NCBI RefSeq assembly: GCF_007828955.1
Contig: NZ_VIVR01000001.1
Span: forward strand, 4,588,001 to 4,652,000
DNA: 64,000 bases
Direction: 5' to 3'
Source of the DNA: Kitasatospora atroaurantiaca
Lineage (GTDB): Bacteria; Actinomycetota; Actinomycetes; Streptomycetales; Streptomycetaceae
Shown here: positions 49,095 through 60,659 of the stretch, piece by piece
Numbering within the stretch: position 1 is the first letter of the stretch
Layout: the number at the start of each line of letters is the position of its first letter
The notes under the pieces: model-generated
What the model was told of the DNA's origin: nothing
Databases searched by the model: none
The model's input: only the letters and a program-made list of their open reading frames with translations
Position numbers and translations under genes: made by a program

Positions 49095-49179
49095 GCCCGG
49101 GTGGTGGAACGCAGACACGGGCAGCTTAAAACTGCTTGGCCGTGAGGCCGTGCCGGTTCGAGTCCGGCCCCGGGCACCA
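49095..49179 (+). tRNA. bldA: tRNA-Leu(UAA), the bldA tRNA
   Basis: Class II tRNA of 85 nt with encoded CCA. Acceptor GCCCGGG (49095-49101) pairs with CCCGGGC (49169-49175); discriminator A. Anticodon stem GGCAG/CTGCT (one G-U) encloses CTTAAAA, anticodon UAA, which reads the rare leucine codon UUA. A long variable arm (TGGCC-GTGA-GGCCG) and the T-arm with GGTTCGAGTCC follow. In Streptomyces the only tRNA reading UUA is bldA, the developmental switch for aerial growth and antibiotic genes. Confidence 0.95.
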
Positions 49180-57213: not shown

Positions 57214-58443
57214 GTGACGGCACCGGAGAAGAAGCATCGCCCCGCCGGGGGGAACTGGAGCCGTCGTGGCGTGCTCGCGGGCCTGCTCGGCGCCCCGGTG
57301 CTGCTCATGGCGGCGTGCAGCAGCGACTCCTCCGACAAGGGGAGCGGTGGCGGCAGCACCCCGAAGACCTCGGTCGCCAAGATCACCGTCTTTCCGGCCG
57401 ACGGCACCACCGACGCCTCGTTCACCGAACCGGTCAGGGTCACCGTCGCCGACGGGAAGCTGGGCTCCGTCGGGGTCACCGACTCGACCGGCAAGGCGAT
57501 ACCCGGGCAGCTGTCCGCCGACGCCGGCAGCTGGACCTCCAGCGGCCCGCTGGCCAGCGGCACCAAGTACACCGTCGCCGCGGTCGCCGCCGACCGCGAC
57601 AAGCTGGAGGCGGACGCCAACACCAGCTTCGCCACCGCCACGCCCGCCAACACCTTCGTCGGGTACTTCACCCCGGAGGACGGCTCGACCGTCGGCGTCG
57701 GCATGCCGGTCTCGATCCGCTTCAACAAGGCGGTCACCGACCGGCAGGCCGTGCAGGAGGCGATAACCGTGGTCGCCGAGCCCGGCGTGGAGATAGTCGG
57801 CCACTGGTACTCCAGCACCCGGCTCGACTTCCGGCCCGAGACGTACTGGGCCAAGGGCACCAGGGTGACGCTCAAGCTGCGCCTGAAGGACGTCGAGGGC
57901 GTCAAGGGCGTCTACGGCACCCAGTCCAAGGACGTGCGATTCACCGTCGGCCGCAGCCAGACCAGCGTCGCCGACCTCAAGGCCGGCACCCTGACGGTCA
58001 CCACCGACGGCCAGGTCACCGCGACCTACCCGATCATCGGCGGCGCCCCCGAGCACCGGACCTGGGCCGGCAAGCTCGTCGTCTCCGAGCAGTTCCCGCA
58101 GACCAAGATGGACTCCACCACGGTCGGCCTCGGCGACGAGTACAACATCCCCGACGTGCCGCACGCCCAGCGCCTGACCGCCTCTGGCACCTTCATCCAC
58201 GGCAACTACTGGGCGCCCGCCTCGGCCTTCGGCAAGGCCAACCTCAGCCACGGCTGCATCGCGCTCCAGGACGTCAAGGGCGCGGCGGATCCGAACACCA
58301 ACGGTGCGAAGTTCTACCGGAGCTCGATGGCCGGCGACGTCGTCGAGGTGATCAACTCGGGCGACAAGACGGTCGACCCGTCCAACGGCCTGAACGGCTG
58401 GAACCTGTCCTGGGCCGACTGGAACGCCGGCAGCGCCGTCTGA
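57214..58443 (+). CDS. L,D-transpeptidase lipoprotein (Ig-like + YkuD)
   Basis: 409 residues from GTG 57214, AGGGAG upstream. The signal SRRGVLAGLLGAPVLLMAAC has a twin Arg and a lipobox, so a Tat-exported lipoprotein is likely. Two Ig-like domains (VFPADGTTDASF; YFTPEDGSTVGVGMPVSIRFN) precede the YkuD catalytic domain with IHGNYW and the catalytic Cys in NLSHGCIAL. The enzyme makes 3-3 cross-links between meso-DAP or LL-DAP stem peptides outside the membrane. Structure is typical of actinobacterial Ldt proteins. Converges on the TTA-codon gene 12 bp away. Confidence 0.94.
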   Translation: MTAPEKKHRPAGGNWSRRGVLAGLLGAPVLLMAACSSDSSDKGSGGGSTPKTSVAKITVFPADGTTDASFTEPVRVTVADGKLGSVGVTDSTGKAIPGQLSADAGSWTSSGPLASGTKYTVAAVAADRDKLEADANTSFATATPANTFVGYFTPEDGSTVGVGMPVSIRFNKAVTDRQAVQEAITVVAEPGVEIVGHWYSSTRLDFRPETYWAKGTRVTLKLRLKDVEGVKGVYGTQSKDVRFTVGRSQTSVADLKAGTLTVTTDGQVTATYPIIGGAPEHRTWAGKLVVSEQFPQTKMDSTTVGLGDEYNIPDVPHAQRLTASGTFIHGNYWAPASAFGKANLSHGCIALQDVKGAADPNTNGAKFYRSSMAGDVVEVINSGDKTVDPSNGLNGWNLSWADWNAGSAV

Positions 58444-58455
58444 GGCTGAGGCCGG

Positions 58456-59496
58456 TCACTTCTCGGCTCTCCCGGCCTCCGGCTCGGCGTCGAACCCGCG
58501 CATCGAGCTCCGCACGTTCTCCAGCACCCTGTTCCCCTGCTGGTCGATCAGGCGGGTGATGGACTCCTGGGCGATGCCGAAGAACGCCGCCCACGCCAGA
58601 ATCTGGGTGCCGGAGTCCAGATTGGTGAGGCCGGGGATGAAGCCGCCCCGGATGAGCAGAATGCCGATGAACGCCGACAGGGCTCCGGCCGGAAGCCTGA
58701 GCAGCATCAGCGCCATCGGCACCATGTAGGGCGTCGAGGTGCCCTGGATGTTCCGGAGGGAGATGGCTCCGGCCAGCGCTGCCGCGCACATTCCCACGAA
58801 CTCGACGAGCAGGACATCGTTGGCCGAGGGGACGTAGGCCGTTCCGCTGCCTGCCGGACAGGTCCGGATGCTGTTGGGGTAGAAGCACATCTTCTCGGCG
58901 ATCGTCTCGGGGCTCACCAGCCCCCAGACGAAGGCGAGCATGGCCAGGGTGGCCAGCGCCAGAACCGATGCCAGCAGGAAGTTACGGAACGTGCGCACCT
59001 TGGCCCGCTCCGCGTCGGCACACTCGTTGGCCGCCTGTAAGGTCCGGACCGCCAGATCCTTGAAGTCCTTGTGGAGCCGGTGGTCGTTGTTCTCCAGGTG
59101 CTCCGCCAGCAGGGCCCGGCGCGGGTCGCTCTCGCCGAGATGTTGTTCGGCCTTGGCGAGTACGGTCGCACCCCACCAGCACAGCTCGTCCTCGGGCGAG
59201 AGCCGCAGGACCGCCTCCTCGGCCTTGTGGATGTTCGGCCAAGCCCGGTCGACGGCCGAGCCCATCCACACGGCCCCCAGTCCGCGCGACTCCTCCACCG
59301 CCTCCCGGGCGGCGCCCAGGTGCTTCCGGGCCATGTCTGCGATGGCCTTGTCACCGGAGGGCAGGCCGCCGCTGTTCTTGTCGATCCTGTCCAGCTGGGA
59401 CTGGAGCTCGGCGATCGACGAGGCACACCGCTGACGCCAGGACGACCGGTTCCGGCCGGCCACGTCCTCCAGCACCTTCGGTTTTCTGCCCGACAT
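58456..59496 (-). CDS. Membrane protein of unknown function containing a TTA codon
   Basis: 346 residues from the ATG at 59496 with GAGGAGG upstream. A cytoplasmic helical domain of about 170 residues (SIAELQSQLDRI; KHLGAAREAVEESRGLG; DRAWPNIHKAEEAVLRLSPEDELCWWG) is followed by four membrane helices (FLLASVLALATLAMLAFVWG; VEFVGMCAAALAGAISL; MVPMALMLLRLPAGALSAFIG; TQILAWAAFFGIAQESIT) and a short tail. The Leu in RTLQAANE is encoded by TTA (complement of 59038-59040), the only in-frame TTA I found in the window, so translation should need the bldA tRNA encoded at 49 kb. GC content is slightly lower than in neighbours, suggesting later acquisition. Family not recognised. Confidence 0.8.
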   Translation of the reverse strand: MSGRKPKVLEDVAGRNRSSWRQRCASSIAELQSQLDRIDKNSGGLPSGDKAIADMARKHLGAAREAVEESRGLGAVWMGSAVDRAWPNIHKAEEAVLRLSPEDELCWWGATVLAKAEQHLGESDPRRALLAEHLENNDHRLHKDFKDLAVRTLQAANECADAERAKVRTFRNFLLASVLALATLAMLAFVWGLVSPETIAEKMCFYPNSIRTCPAGSGTAYVPSANDVLLVEFVGMCAAALAGAISLRNIQGTSTPYMVPMALMLLRLPAGALSAFIGILLIRGGFIPGLTNLDSGTQILAWAAFFGIAQESITRLIDQQGNRVLENVRSSMRGFDAEPEAGRAEK

Positions 59497-59673
59497 GAGT
59501 CCTCCTCGAGTCCCATGCGTACGGCTGGTCCCGCGTTGGCTGCCGGGTGCACCTCGTTCCGTTCTGCGCTTTCCCATCCATCGTGAGCCTGCGGCCACCC
59601 CGGTGCAATCCGGTGATGTCGCCACAAGTTGCTTGAAACATCAGCCAGATGAGCCGTGCTCCGCGTCCTAGGC

Positions 59674-59704
59674 TTGAGTCTCCAGTGACGGGAGACCCCA
59701 AGGT
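59674..59704 (+). promoter_or_regulatory. MerR-type promoter with 19-bp spacer
   Basis: TTGAGT (59674-59679), a 19-nt spacer, then CAAGGT (59699-59704), which ends 7 nt before the ATG at 59712. The spacer holds the dyad GTCTCC/GGAGAC (59678-59683, 59691-59696). An over-long spacer with a central dyad is the hallmark of promoters activated by MerR-family proteins. Confidence 0.72.
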
Positions 59705-59711
59705 GGCGGAC

Positions 59712-60659
59712 ATGGACGACGACACCCTCCGCACCATCGGGGACCTGGCCCGGCTGACCGGCCTGACGGTCAAGACCATCCGGTTCTGGTCCGATGCGGG
59801 AGTGGTGCCGCCGACCGACCGCACCCCCGCCGGCTACCGGCTCTACGGCCGTGACGCGCTGGCCCGCCTCGACCTCGTCCGAACGCTGCGCGACCTCGGC
59901 GTCGACCTCGCCACCATCCAGCGGGTGCTGGAGCGCGAGGTCACCGTCGCCGAGGTCGCGGCAGCGCACGCCGAGGCCCTGGACGTGCAGATCCGCACCC
60001 TGCGGCTGCGCCGGGCCGTCCTGCGAGCGGTTGCCAGGCGTGGGTCCACACCGGAGGAGATGGAACTCATGCACAAGCTCGCCAAGCTCTCCGATCAGGA
60101 ACGCCGCCGCCTGATCAACGACTTCATCGACGAGGCCTTCGAAGGGCTCGACGTCGGGCCCGAGTTCGTGGCCAAGATGCGCGGTGCGATGCCCGAGCTG
60201 CCCGACGACCCGTCTCCCGAACAGGCCGACGCCTGGGTCGAGTTGGCCGAACTCGTCCAGGACCGGGACTTCCGTGCCGGCATCCGCAGGGCGGCCTCGT
60301 ACCAGGCCAGGGAGCGTGCCGAGGGCGTACAGACCGGCACGGGCGCCGACCGGCAGCTGGTGGAGCTGGTCCTGGAGCGGACCGGCGTGGCCCGGGAGGC
60401 AGGCATCGAGCCGGCTGCCGAGGCGGCCCGGCCGGTGGTCGACGAGCTCGCAGGATCCTTCGCGGAACTCTTCGGCCGCGCGGACGGCCCCGAGTTCCGG
60501 GCCTGGCTGCTGGAGCGGATGGTGACCGGCAACGACCCGCGGTACGAGCGGTACTGGCAGCTGATCGCGGTGATCAACGGCTGGCCCGTCGGCCCGAGCC
60601 TCGGGCCTGCCTTCGACTGGCTGGTCGCGGCACTGCGGGCCGGTCTGCAGACCGCCTGA
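59712..60659 (+). CDS. MerR-family transcriptional regulator with a large effector domain
   Basis: 315 residues from the ATG at 59712. The N-terminal winged helix (TLRTIGDLARLTGLTVKTIRFWSDAGVVPPTDRTPAGYRLYG) and the dimer helix (LDLVRTLRDLGVDLATIQRVLERE) are typical of MerR proteins. The 200-residue C-terminal part (HKLAKLSDQERRRLINDFIDEAF; DAWVELAELVQDRDFRAGIRRAA) is helical, like the TipA-type effector domains that bind peptides or drugs; no Cys pattern for metal. It appears to control its own leaderless promoter. Ligand unknown. Confidence 0.9.
   Translation: MDDDTLRTIGDLARLTGLTVKTIRFWSDAGVVPPTDRTPAGYRLYGRDALARLDLVRTLRDLGVDLATIQRVLEREVTVAEVAAAHAEALDVQIRTLRLRRAVLRAVARRGSTPEEMELMHKLAKLSDQERRRLINDFIDEAFEGLDVGPEFVAKMRGAMPELPDDPSPEQADAWVELAELVQDRDFRAGIRRAASYQARERAEGVQTGTGADRQLVELVLERTGVAREAGIEPAAEAARPVVDELAGSFAELFGRADGPEFRAWLLERMVTGNDPRYERYWQLIAVINGWPVGPSLGPAFDWLVAALRAGLQTA

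Follow-up and report, generated by a model that had tools for sequence, protein, structure and literature searches.

The window analysed here, a 64-kb stretch of a Kitasatospora chromosome, holds both a gene for tRNA-Leu(UAA) and a gene for a membrane protein with an in-frame TTA codon. By the established bldA rule, translation of a UUA codon is weak or stalled while this tRNA is scarce. The locus therefore raises the question of whether the TTA codon is a selected developmental switch or an incidental feature of the gene that carries it. The evidence described in the following sections makes it probable that the membrane-protein gene is an ordinary accessory gene, in which a TTA that arose by chance sits on an insert of this lineage and is read by the bldA tRNA, and in which the codon is not a selected switch.

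The TTA codon and its gene

The membrane-protein gene is situated on the minus strand at 58456..59496 and comprises 346 codons, with an ATG start behind a GGAGG motif. It contains exactly one in-frame TTA, codon 153 (Leu153), which occupies 59038..59040 on the minus strand (read 59040-59038) and falls inside a predicted helix of residues 143-194. The codon lies 3' of every plausible start and within the region that can be aligned across the family. The sequence-only reading had located the TTA at this position and had reported no other in the window. Gene calling agrees with it: two home-made gene callers returned 50 and 51 calls, and the membrane-protein gene is the sole TTA-bearing gene in either set, with the reservation that the calls span about 54 of the 64 kb and that small genes left uncalled may contain another.

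A sequencing or assembly error could also produce a solitary TTA, and we regard this explanation as extremely improbable. The genome is a single contig with a completeness of 99.99 percent. Moreover, the two closest homologues, 66 percent identical to the window protein, carry CTG at the codon-153 site, which is two changes away from TTA, so that a single error would require the true codon to be TTG or another codon one step from TTA.

Decoding of the UUA codon

The tRNA-Leu(UAA), the bldA tRNA by function, is encoded on the plus strand at 49095..49179, where ARAGORN recognises a tRNA-Leu(taa) with the anticodon TAA; the tRNA that had been read from the bare sequence at 49095 is thereby corroborated. 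A genome-wide census gave 70 Rfam RF00005 matches, all 70 of which could be assigned an anticodon by ARAGORN. The leucine tRNAs comprise two genes with the anticodon GAG and one each with CAG, TAG, CAA and TAA, and in a DNA search the TAA gene appeared once at full length. The genome as a whole, with every RF00005 match typed, thus has a single tRNA cognate to UUA, as is likewise reported for six catalogued Streptomyces genomes (PMC4932002).

Because UUA has one cognate tRNA in the genome, dependence on bldA is the default expectation, and normal translation of the membrane gene probably needs the bldA tRNA; this is likely, not certain. The earlier statement that translation should depend on tRNA-Leu(UAA) is supported as such a predicted default. 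Published observations point both ways: several TTA genes are reported to be still expressed in bldA-deficient strains (PMC4932002), and the sole TTA-gene product detected in a proteome study of Streptomyces coelicolor is described as missing from the bldA mutant (PMC2000904).

According to this census, UUA codon 153 is normally readable by tRNA-Leu(UAA) only. If the bldA rule applies, translation of the message would be stalled or weak while the tRNA is scarce, so that the cytoplasmic part of the protein may be made and the membrane part would be missing; late in growth, full translation of the membrane protein would be expected.

Probable insertion between the transpeptidase and MerR genes

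The left neighbour of the membrane gene is an L,D-transpeptidase gene (YkuD with a Big_10 Ig domain; 57214..58443, plus strand), and the right neighbour encodes a MerR-family regulator (59712..60659, plus strand). The gap between these two genes measures 55-138 bp in nine relatives versus 1268 bp in the window. The additional DNA extends over approximately 58444..59665, from the transpeptidase stop codon to the conserved sequence upstream of MerR, and homology with the relatives picks up again at CCTAGGCTTGAG, near 59667; both boundaries are approximate. The L,D-transpeptidase was matched in all 70 genomes of the genus, in three of them (G009, G061 and G066) only by a paralogue about 50 percent identical. 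The membrane gene stands beside the transpeptidase gene in none of 29 loci examined from other genomes of the genus. Nine of these loci have MerR or a remnant of it downstream, intact in six, split in two and represented by its start only in one.

A relative of the membrane gene is present in 7 of the 70 genus genomes, its own included, and in 59 of 394 genomes of the taxonomic family. The six other carriers within the genus hold it far from the transpeptidase gene or on another contig. Since the site is empty in relatives and other carriers hold the gene elsewhere, it appears to have entered this lineage recently as a single-gene insert. The event may be pictured as the arrival of a single four-helix gene, from a family of patchy distribution in actinobacteria, between the L,D-transpeptidase and MerR genes, both of which are old.

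The vehicle of the insertion was sought among the usual mobile elements. No transposase is encoded within the insert, no target-site duplication was seen, and no pair of repeats frames it; a transposon was rejected as the carrier on the strength of the missing repeat pair and transposase. A prophage was likewise rejected, as no phage record matched the membrane protein. Three records of a plasmid collection contain a relative, one of them a chromosome-sized record of 11.9 Mb, and a plasmid was also set aside as the carrier. The membrane gene has a GC3 of 0.91, and the value is lower in 109 of 578 sampled genes; base composition does not mark the gene as foreign.

We also note several features of the MerR side of the locus. 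A dyad, CTTGAGTCTCCAGTGACGGGAGACCCCAAG, is found at 59673-59702 of the window, just 5' of the MerR gene, and the insert stops just before it. The dyad is recognisable in all nine relatives, varied in some, and looks like a MerR-type operator with its promoter. A scan of 58300-59800 for promoter and terminator consensus sequences gave no match, a result of little weight for a high-GC actinomycete. Three of the nine relatives (L067, L070 and L083) have a MerR gene that is either split or cut down to its beginning, and judging from these sequences the gene appears to be in decay within the genus.

Age of the bldA neighbourhood and the expected number of TTA genes

The bldA tRNA gene was matched in 65 of the 70 genus genomes with 92-100 percent identity, and the other five gave no match at the search threshold. 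One genus genome has a second match to it, 84 percent identical (G082:C14:149478-149562). The tRNA and L,D-transpeptidase genes share a contig in 56 genomes, where they are always 7-14 kb apart; the linkage is counted in these 56 one-contig genomes, and outside the count stand six genomes with the two genes on separate contigs, three with the transpeptidase paralogue only, and the five genomes that gave no tRNA match. As the two genes keep this spacing of 7-14 kb in relatives, the nearness to bldA is older than the insert and therefore uninformative on the gene.

The number of TTA genes to be expected was estimated from 40 stretches of 20 kb each (800 kb) of the same 7.87-Mb chromosome, taken outside the window. 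Genes in this sample were called by a home-made codon-usage scorer, which covered 78 percent of the sampled DNA and probably under-called low-GC genes. TTA is present in 9 of the 659 called genes, which corresponds to 0.70 TTA genes expected among the 51 genes of the window and to a chance of 0.50 of meeting at least one. Extrapolation to the genome yields about 89 TTA genes, probably an underestimate in view of the 78 percent coverage and the preference for GC-rich genes. Published counts are 51-505 TTA genes per Streptomyces genome, with a mean of 177 over 213 species (PMC10327506), and 147 in S. coelicolor (PMC4255298).

One TTA gene in this window is about chance level. The sequence-only reading had drawn attention to the presence of a TTA gene and bldA in the same window, and this part of it did not hold: the coincidence was rejected as significant, because the number of TTA genes is as expected and because the tRNA and transpeptidase genes lie near each other in relatives that lack the membrane gene. 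Closeness to bldA within a window is meaningless by itself when bldA occupies the same place in relatives without the gene.

Conservation and position of the TTA codon

DNA alignments were used to compare the codon-153 site among homologues of at most 66 percent identity. TTA occurs at this site in none of 33 homologues from whole genomes and in none of 17 homologues from named contigs, which are partly the same genes as the 33. Conservation of the TTA in orthologues, which had been put forward as a check, is thus not observed at this level of identity. At other positions, TTA was found in 2 of the 33 whole-genome homologues; for the homologues from named contigs the figure is 5 of 51. Codon 153 is far from the start, and Leu153 lies within the one long predicted helix, 143-194, that enters the first membrane segment. 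In the 800-kb sample, by comparison, the first 50 codons hold six of the nine TTA codons, and streptomycete TTA codons are reported to concentrate at gene starts (PMC4255298).

These observations bear on the alternative of a TTA selected as a bldA checkpoint, in which the membrane protein is wanted only in aerial or late growth and the codon holds back its synthesis as long as the tRNA is not abundant. A single UUA in frame, with a single tRNA to read it, speaks for such a checkpoint, and there is precedent in published streptomycete bldA cases and within the genus, where the adpA orthologue of Kitasatospora setae is reported to contain a TTA as well (PMC4255298). Against it stand the lack of TTA at this site in every aligned relative, a position at codon 153 of 346 that departs from both the sampled and the published start bias, the patchy and recent occurrence of the gene, and 21 TTA-gene mutants of S. 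coelicolor described as having no obvious phenotype (PMC2000904). We consider a selected checkpoint to be quite unlikely. With the codon unconserved and far from the start, the TTA count as expected, and bldA older than the insert, a developmental or regulatory reading is not supported, and nothing points to selection of this codon as a means of developmental control. The general remark in the sequence-only reading that TTA genes are usually developmental, regulatory or acquired accordingly survives in its last term, which the empty sites in relatives favour, and finds no support in the first two.

Known TTA genes can be set beside the preferred reading, an accessory gene with a chance TTA. 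Like the membrane gene, adpA has a TTA read by bldA in Streptomycetaceae (PMC4255298). The adpA codon is described as being kept across streptomycetes and lying between two domains, whereas the membrane-gene codon is private to one of the genomes compared and is embedded in a single helix. The membrane gene also resembles the bldA-limited accessory genes of streptomycetes: one in-frame TTA, one cognate tRNA and a patchy distribution are common to both, and the low conservation of the TTA matches what is reported as the norm for streptomycete TTA genes. The membrane gene differs from them in that its TTA is at codon 153 rather than near the start, and its bldA limitation is predicted. The TTA would then have come along passively, through drift or from the donor, and the gene would be one more case of a published pattern, namely a patchy acquired gene with an unconserved TTA that is bldA-dependent by default.

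The membrane protein and its family

Hydropathy peaks of the window protein indicate four membrane helices at residues 173-191, 228-246, 264-282 and 299-317. The structure model (mean pLDDT 88.1, pTM 0.80) presents a helical bundle up to about residue 170, followed by the four membrane helices, and residues ~19-170 are predicted to form a helical cytoplasmic domain. The loop that joins membrane helices 1 and 2 carries a pair of nearly invariant cysteines (C204 and C213). The window protein matched no Pfam family and no PADLOC entry at E values up to 1 and no NCBIfam entry at E values up to 0.01; its original description as an unassigned four-helix membrane protein is therefore upheld. No single Pfam family was matched by more than three of 52 family members.

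Structural comparison gave little more. Foldseek found no match in the PDB at E values up to 0.001, and the membrane part was barely covered. The best hits of a second fold search (Z 9.3) were helical bundles, either designed or viral, aligned across 124-130 residues, and such scores are uninformative for this kind of fold. A profile search of solved structures returned a coiled-coil protein as its best match (E 0.044). The cytoplasmic helices, the four membrane helices and the outer two-cysteine loop of the model would fit a membrane sensor or a pore, which we offer as a guess.

The relatives form an unnamed four-helix family in Streptomyces, Kitasatospora, Nonomuraea, Arthrobacter and others, with full-length similarity to the window protein at 29-66 percent identity and with the cysteine pair and membrane part in common with it. 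A scan of genome contigs based on the window protein alone yielded 36 pattern matches, none of them a relative; the scan based on an alignment gave 95 relatives, of which 80 were kept. The Nonomuraea montanisoli member (L141, 5001-5922) has an early stop in the matched range and is, judging from that stop, broken or frame-shifted.

Neighbours of the family in other lineages

The sequence-only reading had called the gene an orphan. The description is apt for the window copy and does not extend to some distant relatives, which have recurrent neighbours. A LysM gene adjoins the family member in 18 of the 80 named loci (5 of 20 in the first set examined). It is directly upstream and on the same strand in 14 of the 18, and downstream in the other four, one of which is a weak match. 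Examples of these small LysM genes, directly 5' of distant family members, are L050 8269-8709 and L147 4588-5016. The LysM domain was recognised with an E value of 1.9e-14, and no signal peptide is visible at the N-terminus of the protein. At least 11 of the LysM loci have wider synteny in common, and they represent one ancestral arrangement rather than independent events.

Proteases recur as well, mostly in Arthrobacter: an S8 protease in 8 of the 80 named loci and a C1-like protease in 5. The subtilase gene lies near the Arthrobacter members of L160, L163, L164, L166, L167, L173, L176 and L177, and the papain-like protease gene is found in four of these eight loci and in L172. On a Streptomyces canus plasmid (L246, 5788-11277), a relative of 37 percent identity precedes a small gene and a NACHT-domain gene. 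The window copy and its nearest relatives have neither a LysM nor a protease neighbour.

From these neighbourhoods it could be argued that the gene belongs to a wall-directed or conflict-type module with a LysM or a C1/S8 protease partner, in which the membrane protein serves as a pore or anchor and the window copy is a stray or stand-alone member. The recurrent LysM genes with their leaderless product, the two kinds of protease and the plasmid member that adjoins a NACHT gene speak for such a module. The absence of any such neighbour around the window copy and its nearest relatives, the single ancestral origin of at least 11 LysM arrangements and the lack of a PADLOC match for three members speak against it, and we hold the module to be unlikely, if the least unlikely of the alternatives. 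A more specific version appears distinctly improbable: the family would be the membrane half of a wall-acting pair, a leaderless cytoplasmic LysM protein working with the four-helix protein in the manner of endolysin and holin, the stand-alone copies would be reduced and mobile, and the UUA would confine one of them to late growth. For the window copy, the reading as an ordinary accessory gene is retained. The LysM and protease neighbours elsewhere in the family are the only lead worth following, and a small one.

The Leu(CAA) tRNA

The tRNA census brought up one side question. The only tRNA gene with the anticodon CAA (G000:C1:1633664-1633737; L289 101-174) is 74 nt long and has no long variable arm. 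Of the 70 genus genomes, 47 have a match to it, with identities of 78-100 percent versus 92-100 percent for the bldA tRNA. When a further Leu(CAA) tRNA was sought by pattern, only two chance sites turned up. The idea that the genome has no normal Leu(CAA) tRNA and that bldA also serves UUG was dropped, as the gene order matches that of the Streptomyces Leu-CAA gene. In Streptomyces, one Leu-CAA gene is reported, named between the Leu-GAG and Val-TAC genes (PMC4932002), and here the order is Leu-GAG at 1.26 Mb, CAA at 1.63 Mb and Val-TAC at 2.07 Mb. Because the order is the same, the CAA tRNA is probably the ordinary streptomycete Leu-CAA gene, odd in its shape and in its fast change.
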